From positions 1 to 46,892 of the forward strand of contig JAAYDG010000017.1 of the NCBI GenBank assembly GCA_012729355.1: DNA of 46,892 bases, in the 5' to 3' direction. Origin of the DNA: Clostridiales bacterium. GTDB taxonomy: Bacteria; Bacillota; Clostridia; Peptostreptococcales; Anaerovoracaceae. This document shows positions 28,120 to 34,152 of this stretch, piece after piece (position 1 is the stretch's first letter; each line of letters begins with the position of its first letter). A program made the translations under genes and the position numbers. Under the pieces are notes generated by a model. It was not told the DNA's origin, did no database searches, and worked only from the letters and a program-made list of their open reading frames with translations.

Positions 28120-28346
28120 CAAAAGCCCCGAACACCTGACGGTGTTCGGGGCAAAAATGCGGTTCCACCCAAACGGAATACTTCATTTCCCTAACGACAG
28201 ATCCTGCCGGCGACCCTCATCGGGTGCAGCTCGGAGATGGTGGGCTTGTGCACTACCTGCAGACTCTTCCAGCCAAGGGAGTCCTTCTCTTGTGCAAGTC
28301 GTATGCGGCCTTTCTCGTCAATGCTTTTTACTGATTTGCGATAACA
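28120..28346 (-). ncRNA. T-box riboswitch upstream of thrS, probable ACC (Thr) specifier at 28239-28241
   Basis: T-box motif TTGGGTGGAACCGC (about 28159-28173) followed by terminator GCCCCGAACACCGTCAGGTGTTCGGGGC (28125-28152); stem I base GACGAGA/TCTCC with ...CCCACCATCTCCGAGCTGC; promoter TTGACA-N16-TATAAT (28352-28379). Confidence 0.93.
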
Positions 28347-28361
28347 AGGCTATTATACCGA

Positions 28362-28850
28362 TCAGAATGAACTTGTCAAGCCTCCCGCCCATTCATACAC
28401 GGCCGTCCGCCGAATCTCCGTCACGGACAGGAACGGAAGCCGGAACAAATCGCGGCCCTGATAGGAAAGAACTACTACCGCTGCAGGTTCGCCGGTTCCG
28501 ACTCCATGCGCTTCGGCTCCGCAATACCCTTTCACATCGTCAAATAAAATCAACTCCGCCGCAAGCTGCCCCGAAAGACCGAAATACGGACCGTCTTCCG
28601 CTTCCGCCAAAACATGCTCCACATAAGCTTCGGCGGAAGCGGAATCGATGCATATCCTGCCGAAAGAATATTCCGTTTCATCCCGAAGGAGGGCGGCCCC
28701 GGAGGCAGCCTCTTCCGCCAGTATTTTCAGTTGCTTCTGCAGAACCGCATAGCGATCCATATCGCTCCATTGGCACAGGAAGCTGATGTTGAGAATCAAA
28801 ATGGCAAAGAAAACAAGAAAAACTTTCAAACCCAGTCCTCTCCATGACAT
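28362..28850 (-). CDS. Predicted membrane-anchored TadE/G-like pseudopilin (last gene of Tad locus)
   Basis: N-terminal single TM (LGLKVFLVFFAILILNISFL) followed by a soluble domain; position in Tad locus. Confidence 0.5.
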   Translation of the reverse strand: MSWRGLGLKVFLVFFAILILNISFLCQWSDMDRYAVLQKQLKILAEEAASGAALLRDETEYSFGRICIDSASAEAYVEHVLAEAEDGPYFGLSGQLAAELILFDDVKGYCGAEAHGVGTGEPAAVVVLSYQGRDLFRLPFLSVTEIRRTAVYEWAGGLTSSF

Positions 28851-28868
28851 ATAGAGGCATCCATGGTG

Positions 28869-29300
28869 TCAAGGAAGCAGCTCGCTGGCAGTCCGGCTTT
28901 CGACGGTGAACATCAGACGGTTATCCTCCTCCCGAATGCCGAACAGCCTGGGCCCTGCCATGATCTGGCCCATGGGAACAGAAATCTTATAATAGATCAG
29001 ACCCCGCTCAAAGCCCGTTCCGTCGAAAACAGCATTCCCCTTGATTCGATATTGGGGTGAGTCGGTGGCTTCGATCAGCACCGATTCCGGGTCCAAATCC
29101 AGGATCTTCGAGATGTTGTCCCGCAGTTCGCTGCGAATCTGTTGAGTAAAGCAACCCTTTTGCCTGGCCTGCTCCCTGGCCACATAGACGCAATCCGACA
29201 GCAACCCGATCCGGGCGTGATTGATTTGATCCAAAGCGAATTGCATAAGAAAAATCAGGAGCAGAGGGAGAACAGCCAGCAACACGAGAAACTGTTTCAT
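28869..29300 (-). CDS. TadE-like minor pilin candidate
   Basis: MKQFLVLLAVLPLLLIFLMQFALDQINHARIGLLSDCVYVAREQARQKG; start corrected to 29300. Confidence 0.55.
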   Translation of the reverse strand: MKQFLVLLAVLPLLLIFLMQFALDQINHARIGLLSDCVYVAREQARQKGCFTQQIRSELRDNISKILDLDPESVLIEATDSPQYRIKGNAVFDGTGFERGLIYYKISVPMGQIMAGPRLFGIREEDNRLMFTVESRTASELLP

Positions 29301-29461
29301 GGGACGACCTCCGGAGAATCCTCCAGGCGGCGCACCTCGATCTCCTGCAGCCAAACTTGACGCAGCGTTGAGGCGACACTGCCGTGTCCCGATCCGGCGA
29401 TCATGGTAAAGAGCTGAAGCCCGAGGCACACGGCCGCAACGAGTACGATCAACTGTTTCAT
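29297..29461 (-). CDS. Small (54 aa) pilin-like membrane protein, absent from ORF track
   Basis: Own translation: MKQLIVLVAAVCLGLQLFTMIAGSGHGSVASTLRQVWLQEIEVRRLEDSPEVVP*; ATGA overlap with next gene. Confidence 0.6.
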   Translation of the reverse strand: MKQLIVLVAAVCLGLQLFTMIAGSGHGSVASTLRQVWLQEIEVRRLEDSPEVVP

Positions 29462-29476
29462 CGGATCTTTCCGTTC

Positions 29477-29632
29477 TTACTCGCCGGCGGCTTCGAATTC
29501 ACCGATAACGTTTCCGAGTTTACTGTCCACACTTTCTTTCATTTCACTGGCTTCTCCACCGAACCCCATCACGACGGTGCCAATGGCAATGCCGAGTATC
29601 ACTGTAGCGATCATTACGATCAATTGCTTCAT
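29477..29632 (-). CDS. Small (51 aa) pilin-like protein, candidate major pilin, absent from ORF track
   Basis: Own translation: MKQLIVMIATVILGIAIGTVVMGFGGEASEMKESVDSKLGNVIGEFEAAGE*; good SD (AGGAG upstream). Confidence 0.65.
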   Translation of the reverse strand: MKQLIVMIATVILGIAIGTVVMGFGGEASEMKESVDSKLGNVIGEFEAAGE

Positions 29633-29651
29633 GTTTTCTCCTTTCCGGCAA

Positions 29652-30299
29652 TCAAAGAATACCCATCAACAGCTCTCGCTGCTCTATAAAATAAGCCACA
29701 TAGATGAAATTCAGCAGAACGACCATACAGTTGAGGACGACAGGGAAATAGGCCAGATCGCTGATCCACTCGTCCTTCTTTTTCTGAAGCGTGCGCCGTT
29801 TTTGAAAAAGCAGATCCCGGTATGCTTCCACCGTGCTGAGCATTTCCCGGGGAGGGATCCGCTCCCATTCGGTAAAGAGCTTTGCCACGTCCCGCGCATA
29901 GTCCAGACCGAATGCGGCGTAAAATATCTCACCTGCCGCTTCATCTTCGCACAAACGCAGCCGATGAGCCATTTCCCAGAATACCTTTTGCAGATTATCC
30001 GACAGATCCGCCAATTCTTCCAGTAGCAATTCCCGGCTCATGGTTCTGTCCCTTCCCAAGGTGACGATGTTTTGCACATAAGCCAACGCTTCCGAAAGCT
30101 CTCGCTCGCGGAGAGCTCGCTTCCTCAACTCCGTATATTTTCCGAACAGCTGACACAATCGACTGCCGGCGACCCTTCGGCAAACGGATCCACCGTACGC
30201 AACACTCCTGCCGACGAGCCGGACCGGCTCCTTTCGGATCAGAGGAAAACATCCCGTCCAGAAAAGCGTATACGCAAATAAGAGTACCCGGAAGCTCAC
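29652..30299 (-). CDS. TadC-like membrane protein
   Basis: C-terminal T2SSF-like TM region; follows TadB-like gene. Confidence 0.55.
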   Translation of the reverse strand: MSFRVLLFAYTLFWTGCFPLIRKEPVRLVGRSVAYGGSVCRRVAGSRLCQLFGKYTELRKRALRERELSEALAYVQNIVTLGRDRTMSRELLLEELADLSDNLQKVFWEMAHRLRLCEDEAAGEIFYAAFGLDYARDVAKLFTEWERIPPREMLSTVEAYRDLLFQKRRTLQKKKDEWISDLAYFPVVLNCMVVLLNFIYVAYFIEQRELLMGIL

Positions 30300-30312
30300 A
30301 TCTTCCTCCTCG

Positions 30313-31260
30313 TCAATAATCGATCTTCTGGTTCCGGAGCAATTCCAAAGCGGCCAGATTGATCACAAAAAGAACCAGTGATGCCGTAAAAAACAAAAAC
30401 CCCTCCGGTGTGGTGAACTGATTCCGAAGCAACTCTGCCGGAGCCAACCCCAGGTAGAGAACTGAAATTCCCAGCGTCCCGATGTAAAGAACCGGCACAA
30501 GAAACAGTGTCATGCGGGCAGATTCGCTGTTCAGCCGGTCGCGTTCCTGGGCTCTGGTGTTGGCTTCGCTCAACTGGGCCGATATATCCCGAAGCCCTCC
30601 GGATACATCGATACCTTTTTCCGCGGCAAGCCGGATGCATACGCCGAGCATCTTTCCCCACACGGTACCGGCGGCAAAGGCGAATTGATCCACAGCTTCT
30701 CTCACCTCCGCCGGACTGCCGGTACTGCGCAGTTTCAGAAGCAGACGGTAAAGGAGTTTTCTGAATACAGGATAGTCTCCCTCTCCGTTCAAAACCGATT
30801 CGATCGCCACATAGATATTCTTATGATTCGTCCAGTAGTGGCGGTATAACTCCGACACTAAAGACAGCCCTTCCCGACTTCCCTTTTTCTGTTGCAGCTC
30901 CAGTTTGACGACCCAAAGAAGCAGGGGCAGAGACGTGGCAACACACGATAAGAAGAGGGATGCCGGCCATGAAAAAATACGCAGGGACAACAACATCATC
31001 AATGCAAACAAAAGGGCGAGGCCCGTAAAAATTACCCGTTCGTCCGGCGCATGGTGAAAGCTGGCGCTCAACACGTTTCGCACGTAGCGAACCATCGGCG
31101 TTATCTGGCCCTTTTGCCTGCGGGCTGCACGAAGCCGGTGTCGCATCGCACAACCAAGATGAAGCAGGCGAATGTGCTCTCGAAAAACACACAGCCATCC
31201 CGCCGCGAAGAGCAGGGTGATCAGCACGGTCGCGATCCATTCGATCCATCGGCTGCTCAT
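30313..31260 (-). CDS. TadB-like type II secretion system F domain protein
   Basis: T2SSF-like segment (VWGKMLGVCIRLAAEKGIDVSGGLRDISAQLSEANTRAQERDRLNSESARMTLFLVPVLYIGTLG); ATGA overlap with preceding gene. Confidence 0.7.
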   Translation of the reverse strand: MSSRWIEWIATVLITLLFAAGWLCVFREHIRLLHLGCAMRHRLRAARRQKGQITPMVRYVRNVLSASFHHAPDERVIFTGLALLFALMMLLSLRIFSWPASLFLSCVATSLPLLLWVVKLELQQKKGSREGLSLVSELYRHYWTNHKNIYVAIESVLNGEGDYPVFRKLLYRLLLKLRSTGSPAEVREAVDQFAFAAGTVWGKMLGVCIRLAAEKGIDVSGGLRDISAQLSEANTRAQERDRLNSESARMTLFLVPVLYIGTLGISVLYLGLAPAELLRNQFTTPEGFLFFTASLVLFVINLAALELLRNQKIDY

Positions 31261-32678
31261 ACCGTTCCGCATCCCTCTTCGTCGGCGTTTGGGTTGGCGA
31301 TCGGAGAAGCCACGATCAATTCTCGGAGGGACGACTGCATCTTATGCCAGGAGGCCGGATCAGACTCTGATGCGTAAGTCTGTTGACGAATCCCTTCTGT
31401 TTCGAAAAACGTCCAACTGTCTTCGACCACATCGTACGTACAAACCGTTCTCATGCGAATGATTCCTTTCTCGTCGCAGTTCATTTCATTGATGCTCTTC
31501 AACCGTTTTTCCCGCTTGTCCGTCAATTGGATGAAATGGAACAAATAATCGAATCCGGAGGCGACTCTTCGCATGGTCATGGTCAAATCGCCTCCGGTGG
31601 CCTGAACGATTTCGTCGGCCGCTTCCAGGGGAAACTGATTCGGATCACCGGAATGAAACGTCAGTTTCATACGTTTCGTGCCTTTCCCGGCGATCTTCAC
31701 AGCCGTGTTCAAAGCGATGCCGTCTCTTGCTTCCGCCAGGATGAAGTAGTCCGCATCGCTTCGAAGCAGGCTTTTGGATATCCTTAACAACTCCTGCCCA
31801 TCGGCAAGAAGTTGAAGAATAGGCGCTTCGGGCAAAATCATATGAAGAGGTATTTCCGGGTCGGTTTCCACCATGACCCCTTCCAGCGCAGGATCTTCGT
31901 AGCTTTGCCACGTCGTGAGAAAAGTGGTTTTCGCCGTCCGGACCGCCCCGAGAAACACCACATTGAATCCGATGCGCACCATGTGCCGAAACAGAGGAAT
32001 CGCTTCTTTCGGAATGGTCCTTCGACGGGCTTGTTCCTCAAAACTCAGGATCGGAATGATGTAGCGGCGAAACACGATGGCATCCTGCCCTTTTTTCGCC
32101 ATAGGTTCGGCAAAGATCGTCACACGGGTACCGTCCAGCAAATAAGTTTCGTGGTACGTTTTATCCAGTCTCTCCTCCGGATTCAGGAGCAGAAACGCGC
32201 GTATCAGTTGTTCTTTTCTTGCTTTTGCGATACGCTGGGGCTTGAGAACCATCCGCCCTTCCTCCATGAAATAGATCCGTTCTCCGATGATCTTGGCGGA
32301 ACTGCTGTGGGCGTATCCCGGTCCGAACCACTCGCCGACCCCTGCCAGTCCCCAGTTTTCGTGATAGATTCCATCCACCAGATCGCTGTACCATTCCGGG
32401 AAAGGGGTTCTTTCCGCACCCTTCCCACGGACAAGAGTCTCGATTCTGTCTTTGAAATAAGCTGTTTCTTTTTGATAGCCGATGATCGCTCTCTTTTGTA
32501 TGTCCAGAACGGATTTGGCATTTTCCTCTTCCTCCCATTCCGAGAAAAAGGCAGTTTTGATTTGATCGCATAATCCGACGAAATCCGTTGACTCGAACAA
32601 GGCGGAAGAATCGGAGCAACAACCATCCTTTTTTACGCTTCTGTTTTTGATGTATTCCTGAATTTCAAAAGATTCCAT
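31257..32678 (-). CDS. Divergent CpaF/TadA-type secretion ATPase
   Basis: FRHMVRIGFNVVFLGAVRTAKTTFLTTWQ (P-loop variant), DADYFILAEARDGIALNTAVKIAGKGTKRMKLTFHSGDPNQFP (Walker B/His-box region). Confidence 0.8.
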   Translation of the reverse strand: MESFEIQEYIKNRSVKKDGCCSDSSALFESTDFVGLCDQIKTAFFSEWEEEENAKSVLDIQKRAIIGYQKETAYFKDRIETLVRGKGAERTPFPEWYSDLVDGIYHENWGLAGVGEWFGPGYAHSSSAKIIGERIYFMEEGRMVLKPQRIAKARKEQLIRAFLLLNPEERLDKTYHETYLLDGTRVTIFAEPMAKKGQDAIVFRRYIIPILSFEEQARRRTIPKEAIPLFRHMVRIGFNVVFLGAVRTAKTTFLTTWQSYEDPALEGVMVETDPEIPLHMILPEAPILQLLADGQELLRISKSLLRSDADYFILAEARDGIALNTAVKIAGKGTKRMKLTFHSGDPNQFPLEAADEIVQATGGDLTMTMRRVASGFDYLFHFIQLTDKREKRLKSINEMNCDEKGIIRMRTVCTYDVVEDSWTFFETEGIRQQTYASESDPASWHKMQSSLRELIVASPIANPNADEEGCGTV

Positions 32679-33436
32679 GGACTCCGACTCCCTTCTGTGA
32701 TCGGCGCCGCACCGGCGTTGCGCAGAATCAAATTCGCCGTGCTTCGGACATCTTTTCCGAAATTTTTATCCCGATAGTGGATCAGCGAGCGCCCTTCCGC
32801 CTCAGCGACAAGCCCGAGGGGTGATTCCGAAACGACGAAGAAATCGCTCCAAAATCGATCCAATCGTTTGCGAAGATATCCCAAGGTGTAAGGATTTTCA
32901 TCCTGGTATCGATTGATCAGACATCCAAGTGTCGAAACATTGAGTTTCTGATATAAGGGCATCAGACGTTCAAACCGTCGGACCGCGCTTTCGGATTGTG
33001 TCATCACCAGAAAGATGCCGTCCGCCGCAAACAGGGATCCCAACGCAAGTCCGTGGCCGATCTGGCTTCCGCTGTCGCAGAGGATCAGATCAAAATAATG
33101 GCGCAACTGTTTCAGGAGCTGATCGGACAGATTCGGATGATATTTCCCGTCTCCGTCCAAAGGATCCGCCCCTAAAATATAATAGAGGTTATCCTGCCAT
33201 TTGGAGCGGGCCATGATCTCCTGGGGGTCGATCAATCCTTCGGCCAGTTCGGGCCGAATCCTGTCCATCGACTCCCCGGCACCCGAAGCATAATCGTTCC
33301 CGGAAGCACCTTCCGTATGAATGACAAGTACTTTCCAGTCGGGAATCTCTTTCGCAATGAACTCTGCGACTGACTGGCACAGCATGGATGTGCCGCACTT
33401 GTGATCCACGCCGAAAAAAGTATAGATCCCGCTCAT
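32633..33436 (-). CDS. CpaE/TadZ-like MinD-superfamily protein with degenerate P-loop
   Basis: MSGIYTFFGVDHKCGTSMLCQSVAEFIAKEIPDWKVLVIHTEG...YFDLILCDSGSQIGHGLALGSLFAADGIFLVMTQSESAVRRFERL. Confidence 0.75.
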   Translation of the reverse strand: MSGIYTFFGVDHKCGTSMLCQSVAEFIAKEIPDWKVLVIHTEGASGNDYASGAGESMDRIRPELAEGLIDPQEIMARSKWQDNLYYILGADPLDGDGKYHPNLSDQLLKQLRHYFDLILCDSGSQIGHGLALGSLFAADGIFLVMTQSESAVRRFERLMPLYQKLNVSTLGCLINRYQDENPYTLGYLRKRLDRFWSDFFVVSESPLGLVAEAEGRSLIHYRDKNFGKDVRSTANLILRNAGAAPITEGSRSPWNLLKFRNTSKTEA

Positions 33437-34071
33437 AATCCGCCCTCCATATACACGATCAGATCTCCCGGAACAGCTGAATGTTGACTTTGATAGATCT
33501 TCATATATTCCTCTGCAGTGCAGACGATCTCCAAACTGGCAGCGGGATCTGCATCCTCGTGTCGCTCTAGCAAATCGACGCTTCCTGAGTCAAAAGCCGG
33601 CAGTGATCTGCCTCCGCGATCTATTACATAGGCTACCCGATGAATGCCCATATCCTGCTCTGTGGACACCGAGAAAAGCCGCACAGCGTCCCCGGGTCTG
33701 ACTACGCTGCTCATCGCGCCGATCCATTGCTCGCAGATGGGGAAAATCGATTGATTGTGTTTGACGGTATTTCTTTCGCTTCGAAAGCAGCCGGAAGAAA
33801 GTTGTTGGTTGGCACACAGCGGAATCACAGCGATACATCCGACGACCTGCGTGGACGACTCTGGCATGAGCGCACCAGTCATCCTGTTTTCCGGCAAAAC
33901 GTGTATCGTGGTCAAATCTTGCGCCAGAACGGATTCCCCTGCGGCAATATCTCTCGAAGCAGCCAGTACGGGGGTCAACAAAAGCGCATCACGGCCGCGG
34001 ACTTCCCAAAAGACCATCACACCCAAACTGAAGATCATCAAGAACAATCCCAGTACGGTTTTCCGTTTCAT
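33433..34071 (-). CDS. CpaB/RcpC-like SAF-domain protein
   Basis: N-terminal TM then VLAASRDIAAGESVLAQDLTTIHVLPENRMTGALMPESSTQVVGCIAVIPLCANQQL; start 34071 with GGAGGTGCT SD. Confidence 0.75.
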   Translation of the reverse strand: MKRKTVLGLFLMIFSLGVMVFWEVRGRDALLLTPVLAASRDIAAGESVLAQDLTTIHVLPENRMTGALMPESSTQVVGCIAVIPLCANQQLSSGCFRSERNTVKHNQSIFPICEQWIGAMSSVVRPGDAVRLFSVSTEQDMGIHRVAYVIDRGGRSLPAFDSGSVDLLERHEDADPAASLEIVCTAEEYMKIYQSQHSAVPGDLIVYMEGGL

Positions 34072-34081
34072 AGCACCTCCG

Positions 34082-34152
34082 TTTCCATTATTTGTCATTA
34101 TCATACTGCCGGCGCGCCGTTTTGTCAAGTTATATTTTCCATTTTTGTCATT
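34082..34152. repeat. Near-identical direct repeats flanking the Tad promoter
   Basis: TTTCCATTATTTGTCATT (34082-34099) and TTTCCATTTTTGTCATT (34136-34152), 54 bp apart. Confidence 0.7.
34100..34128 (-). promoter_or_regulatory. Tad-locus promoter
   Basis: Minus strand TTGACA (34123-34128)-N17-TATGAT (34100-34105). Confidence 0.7.

Follow-up and report, generated by a model that had tools for sequence, protein, structure and literature searches.

Can a type IV filament be assembled from subunits that carry no leader for a prepilin peptidase to remove? This question is raised by a run of nine minus-strand genes at positions 28362 to 34071 of contig JAAYDG010000017.1 (assembly GCA_012729355.1), which comes from a Clostridiales bacterium of the family Anaerovoracaceae and was analysed over its whole 46,892 nucleotides (the window). 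All type IV pilins are assumed to have their leader cleaved by a prepilin peptidase, and software recognises them on this basis. According to the definition in a 2023 review, the leader of these pilins always has Gly or Ala as its last residue and is removed by a prepilin peptidase (PMC10191384), while the loci without a peptidase gene (MSH) known from a survey of the superfamily are supposed to borrow one (PMC6668835). A widespread machine that skips cleavage tests the need for leader removal, a free N-terminus and Glu5 in pilus assembly. We consider it probable that the nine genes encode a Tad-type machine whose subunits, translated without leaders, form a thin filament on the surface or a short pseudopilus. 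The module points to a surface system, so far unstudied, in gut Clostridia and on Bacillus-type plasmids.

The features of the module, in the direction of transcription, are:

34100..34128, minus strand: promoter-like site TTGACA-17-TATGAT upstream of the operon (11/12 matches, in a scan whose sites were no more numerous than in shuffled sequence)
33433..34071, minus strand: CpaB/RcpC-like protein with a SAF domain (TIGR03177 at E 1.7e-4, far below its cut-off; a longer frame is possible from 34161)
32633..33436, minus strand: TadZ/CpaE-like protein of the MinD/ParA family (MinD model 5.9e-7; profile against ParA/MinD structures 1e-7)
31257..32678, minus strand: TadA/CpaF-like ATPase with an altered P-loop, GAVRTAKTT (TIGR03819 and CpaF-structure profile matches)
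30313..31272, minus strand: TadB-like membrane platform protein (AlphaFold pLDDT 91; EpsF/OutF fold neighbours; weak T2SSF)
29652..30299, minus strand: TadC-like membrane platform protein with a GTG start (by position; weak T2SSF)
29477..29632, minus strand: pep1, a 51-aa leaderless pilin-like peptide and major-pilin candidate (conserved MKQ-type start)
29297..29461, minus strand: pep2, a 54-aa leaderless pilin-like peptide and major-pilin candidate (shared start residue)
28869..29300, minus strand: TadE1, a leaderless TadE-like pseudopilin (start abuts the helix; AlphaFold pLDDT 88)
28362..28829, minus strand: TadE2, a leaderless TadE/TadF-like pseudopilin with a TTG start (AGAGG before the TTG; N-terminal profile in common with TadE1)

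A preliminary description of this DNA had reported such a gene run with ATGA overlaps, and all of its open reading frames are present in that order. The overlaps lie between cpaB and tadZ (33433-33436) and between pep2 and tadE1 (29297-29300), with longer ones of 46 nt between tadZ and tadA and 16 nt between tadA and tadB. Judged by its good ribosome site, the cpaB start is most likely at 34071; that of tadE2 is most likely the TTG at 28829 rather than the ATG at 28850.

The evidence for leaderless translation lies in the N-termini. In all chromosomal loci examined, the start codon stands immediately 5' of the hydrophobic helix in every copy of all four pilin-like proteins. These N-termini were tabulated in 205 rows (52 pep1, 52 pep2, 56 TadE1 and 45 TadE2), or about 197 distinct genes, since one genome appears twice (as L034 and as L013), accounting for four rows, and four peptides matched both peptide models. 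No in-frame ATG, GTG or TTG exists upstream in 167 of the 205 rows, and therefore no leader can be encoded there. The MKQ-type start of pep1 and the start residue of pep2 are each kept in 52/52 rows, TadE1 starts directly before its helix in 56/56, and the TadE2 start position is identical in 45/45. M1, K2, L13 and G14 are invariant in a joint alignment of pep1 and pep2, and M1-K2 is conserved among distant chromosomal copies. Shine-Dalgarno-like sites precede the starts of pep1, pep2, TadE1 and TadE2 in 94%, 71%, 79% and 69% of rows, respectively, compared with 22-31% at shifted control positions (22% for pep1). As a positive control, canonical TadE proteins of the same genomes have a leader followed by Gly/xxxxGlu or Asp (the slash marking the cut) in every correctly picked case.

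Because start codons abut the pilin-like helix in every copy, the subunits appear to be born mature, with nothing for a prepilin peptidase to cut. The class III signal peptide is thus represented by its hydrophobic helix but lacks its leader, and the TadE-like proteins have no class III site at which TadE/TadF pseudopilins are processed. Among the small peptides, whether on chromosomes or on plasmids, no copy has a cleavable leader or G/xxxxE(Y), the marks of a Flp pilin, and Glu at position 5 is absent from the module's pilin-like proteins. The idea of a divergent Tad-type locus with unprocessed subunits, put forward in the preliminary description, is therefore strongly supported. Its other option, processing by signal peptidase, finds no footing: no conserved A-x-A-like site follows the helix in the subunit alignments, and the AlphaFold model of TadE1 (pLDDT 88) is a lollipop shape, with one continuous 47-residue N-terminal helix and a small beta domain. 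TadE1 has no Pfam TadE match, and a Foldseek search with its model found no significant match and no solved neighbour. When it is aligned with the canonical TadE profile at their common LP motif, M1 falls on the cleavage Gly (hhalign probability 24%), a register that is suggestive only. The missing leaders explain why the family escapes pilin finders and Pfam.

That the module works like a Tad machine is well supported by its other proteins. Pfam barely recognises any of the nine, and NCBIfam gives weak matches to CpaB, MinD and the TadA family. Across orthologues, however, the assignment becomes firm for CpaB, TadZ and the ATPase. The SAF domain is found in 24/31 CpaB orthologues (best 3e-9). 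TadZ/CpaE and CpaB/RcpC proteins are both represented, through MinD/ParA, SAF and weak TIGR03177 matches. A TadA/CpaF-family ATPase is present as well: TIGR03819 matches 18/20 members, the profile reaches CpaF structures at about 1e-5, and the ATPase model scores 28.8 bits against the genome's own canonical CpaF, which the model does not contain. K250, T251, E316 and R306 are invariant, and the ten-residue spacing of R306 and E316 equals that of the CpaF arginine finger R347 and Walker B E357, whose roles have been described (PMC12019362). The P-loop consensus is GxV[RK][ST][AGS]K[TS][TS]; since distant members keep the classic GxxxxGK[ST], the change to Ala is derived.

For the platform, the best fold neighbours of the TadB model are the cytoplasmic (platform) domains of EpsF/OutF, at a probability of 0.98-0.99 but with E above 0.5. 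T2SSF is weakly matched in 3/34 TadB and 5/31 TadC members, and the annotation of two TadB copies from plasmids is type II secretion system F. SpoIIIAB is also among the TadB fold neighbours, with poor E-values. The SpoIIIA channel of sporulating Firmicutes (SpoIIIAA/AB) resembles the module in pairing a type II/IV secretion-type ATPase with a GspF-like protein, but it has no pilin-like subunits, no TadZ or CpaB, and a different operon. With ATPase, TadZ, CpaB, two platform-like proteins and pilin-like subunits all present, and with secretin absence being normal in monoderms, the locus does not deserve the terms minimal or compact that it was first given.

The maturation genes of the genome lie elsewhere. 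Its single A24 peptidase over the cut-off is on contig C115, between the genes for fructose-bisphosphate aldolase (fba) and glyceraldehyde-3-phosphate dehydrogenase (gap), which agrees with the earlier observation that the window has no TadV. In the loci and plasmids that were inspected, the module showed no A24 peptidase, and no TadV is dedicated to this locus. A canonical Tad locus is present on contig C72 (L030), and a GspE-type ATPase on C45. The C72 locus is a machine of the same type in the same cell, but it differs in the classic P-loop of its CpaF (GGTSSGKTT) and in its leader-bearing subunits: its TadE-like proteins have a leader and G/xxxxE or D (TG/SATVEA, RG/SLIVDA), and the leader of its small pilin ends in Gly (KEG/MELVQ). 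Thus, a peptidase and a leader-bearing pilin, whose discovery elsewhere in the genome had been named as a possible objection, do both exist, but neither is linked to the module. A secretin (RcpA/CpaC, in diderms only) was likewise missing from the window, and none exceeds the Pfam cut-off in the whole genome, as expected because the host is a monoderm. A match to a secretin C-terminus below the cut-off lies at G000:C79:1674-1790 (L117), and this contig has an A24-like match close by that is weaker still. Co-occurrence with A24 was dropped as a test of peptidase need: A24 is found in 79/80 module genomes (the remaining one is a fragmented and highly contaminated assembly), so presence or absence is uninformative and the substrate sequence tests the need instead.

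The module is also not confined to one genome. Clostridia account for nearly all of the 25 loci that a scan of GTDB representative genomes gave, and Paenibacillus tyrfis for one of them; the gene order was constant wherever the contig was long enough. A synteny comparison across Clostridia, proposed in the preliminary description, bears this out: the same nine-gene order recurs in dozens of loci. Because these come from independent genomes, the feature is far beyond chance. The ATPase was found in 85/325 genomes and 44/133 genera of the window's order, and in wider draws in 3/399 genomes of the phylum and 9/393 of the class (own genome counted in each).

On plasmids, a protein search found the ATPase on 59 Bacillota plasmids, always at <60% identity and at 23-32% among the matches listed; these copies are far more diverged than the chromosomal ones. 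The 16 of the 59 plasmids that were opened show an unchanged gene order: SAF, ParA/TadZ, ATPase, two membrane proteins, 1-5 tandem peptides of ~44-70 aa, TadE1 and TadE2. None of 67 plasmid pilin-like proteins has a leader (there was one chance pattern match), and tandem near-identical peptides are expected of major subunits. In most opened plasmids, large SLH, PKD, CARDB, Ig-like or LPXTG surface proteins follow TadE2, which suggests adhesion, there probably to mating partners. A coupling protein of the VirD4/TraM-recognition type lies within ~12 kb upstream of the module in 12/16, a neighbourhood suggesting an adhesive or mating filament. A phage origin was rejected, as an annotated phage collection held no match to the module ATPase.

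Several further observations were made on these plasmids. A conserved block of large Bacilli plasmids (L107-L116) comprises a replication-relaxation protein, a VirD4-like protein, a MinD-like protein, the leaderless module and giant PKD/SLH proteins, and MOB-suite types most of these plasmids as non-mobilizable despite their coupling proteins. A transposase cassette separates the ATPase and TadB genes in L115, and an IS66 element lies among the peptides in L114. At L099 13689-14606, L102 12144-13043 and L111 16292-17218, TadE2 either is fused with an M23 peptidoglycan hydrolase or has such an annotation, which brings a pilin-like helix together with a domain that cuts the wall.

The plasmid copies also give rise to the alternative that survives best, though we judge it unlikely: that no filament is made, and the module is a membrane complex. 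It would then use a pseudopilus to drive secretion or wall remodelling or, when on plasmids, form an auxiliary component of a type IV secretion system, its ATPase taking the part of VirB11. On a Cytobacillus plasmid the module indeed lies between VirD4 and a set of VirB4-like, TrbL and lysozyme genes, TadE2 is fused to an M23 wall hydrolase on some plasmids (Bacillus thuringiensis pHT77, Planococcus), and Glu5, on which the packing of known pili depends, is missing. However, two platform-like proteins, tandem small pilin-like peptides and TadE-like subunits make up a Tad kit rather than a VirB kit, and the module is also found on chromosomes without adjoining transfer genes.

Somewhat less likely again is that the module is an accessory to a canonical Tad pilus of its own cell, for instance an additional motor or base through which leaderless minor subunits are loaded onto that pilus. 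Canonical clostridial-type CpaF is present in 85/85 carriers of the order compared with 143/240 non-carriers, and also in eight carriers outside it (seven genomes of three further families and Paenibacillus tyrfis), an association that hints at cooperation with canonical Tad. In one Bacillota genome (G471; L080, 11465-20000), the module directly continues a canonical Tad locus: its genes, TadE and a TadV-like A24 peptidase among them, are followed on the same strand by FHA, PP2C and Ser/Thr kinase-MinD genes and these by the leaderless module, which suggests phosphorylation control of a double system. Nevertheless, canonical CpaF is nearly universal in the window's family, so that the link may be mostly phylogeny; the carrier genome of L024 has no canonical CpaF; and the module has a full set of motor, platform and subunits to itself and in most cases is distant from the canonical locus. 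Dependence on canonical Tad was therefore set aside as suggestive but confounded. The last alternative, that leaders exist, starts were misread and the C115 peptidase processes the subunits, can point to the one A24 peptidase in the genome but is nearly refuted by the upstream-start table and the ribosome-site test, as well as by M1-K2 conservation in distant copies and the leaders that the same procedure detects in canonical TadE.

We thus return to a Tad-type machine with leaderless subunits. Through their N-terminal helix the subunits would enter the membrane in N-in orientation, with K2 inside, and a hexameric TadA-like ATPase with TadB/TadC would extract and stack them. The ~50-aa peptides (1-5 tandem copies on plasmids) would be the major subunits, TadE1/TadE2 would initiate or tip the fibre, and TadZ and CpaB would place and align it. 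In this clostridial family the module would be a resident surface organelle encoded on the chromosome. More tentatively, and with rather less than even confidence, the module may represent a prepilin-peptidase-independent branch of type IV filaments that has lost leader and Glu5 and is assembled straight from translation; such a branch would be fixed on chromosomes of one clostridial family and have spread on Bacilli plasmids as a mating-pair adhesion filament. Several points weigh against these proposals. The filament is deduced from genes and its adhesive or mating role from association, and the subunits lack the Glu5 that canonical pilins use for assembly. The homology to TadE is weak by sequence (the hhalign probability of 24%), and TadE1 and TadB have no significant fold match by E-value. 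With A24 in nearly every carrier, independence from it is read from the substrates' sequence.

How does the module compare with known systems? Tad/Flp systems (type IVc; Caulobacter Cpa, Aggregatibacter Tad) share its operon of CpaB, TadZ, TadA/CpaF, TadB and TadC (both putative in the module), a small single-helix pilin and TadE-type pseudopilins. In contrast, the module has no leader, no Gly/xxxxGlu, no TadV in the locus, no secretin and an altered P-loop, and is mostly outside Pfam models. Mature Flp pilins retain a conserved Glu-Tyr pair (PMC11067988), which is absent from the module peptides. Because leader, cleavage site and dedicated peptidase were looked for and not found, the module is not filed as a Tad pilus. 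A plasmid Tad/Flp locus of Cutibacterium acnes lies beside conjugation genes on a Gram-positive plasmid, with a subunit seen on the surface, and the N-terminus of 3/4 of its TadE-like proteins was reported as not being a signal peptide (PMC5696575). Unlike the module, it has one subunit with a predicted prepilin site and one Pfam TadE match, and it belongs to another phylum; a link to conjugation is unproven for both. No account of the module family was found in the open-access literature, subscription papers being outside the search.

Regarding the chromosomal neighbourhood, a mobile element around the window copy was rejected, as the module keeps its place beside thrS in related genomes (a cluster of 14 loci); for this reason it is a stable chromosomal locus there. 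In eight chromosomal loci (L037, 2247-3191, and relatives), a ~300-aa secreted or membrane protein directly follows tadE2 and may be an extra operon member. One locus (L078, G1003) has lost the middle genes of the module and is a decaying copy. Upstream of thrS (window positions 28125-28379, minus strand), no Rfam T-box match was obtained, but the region looks like a T-box leader: it has the sequence GGGTGGAACCGC, a TTGACA-16-TATAAT promoter that matches perfectly (28379-28352) and, at 28152-28125, a strong terminator.

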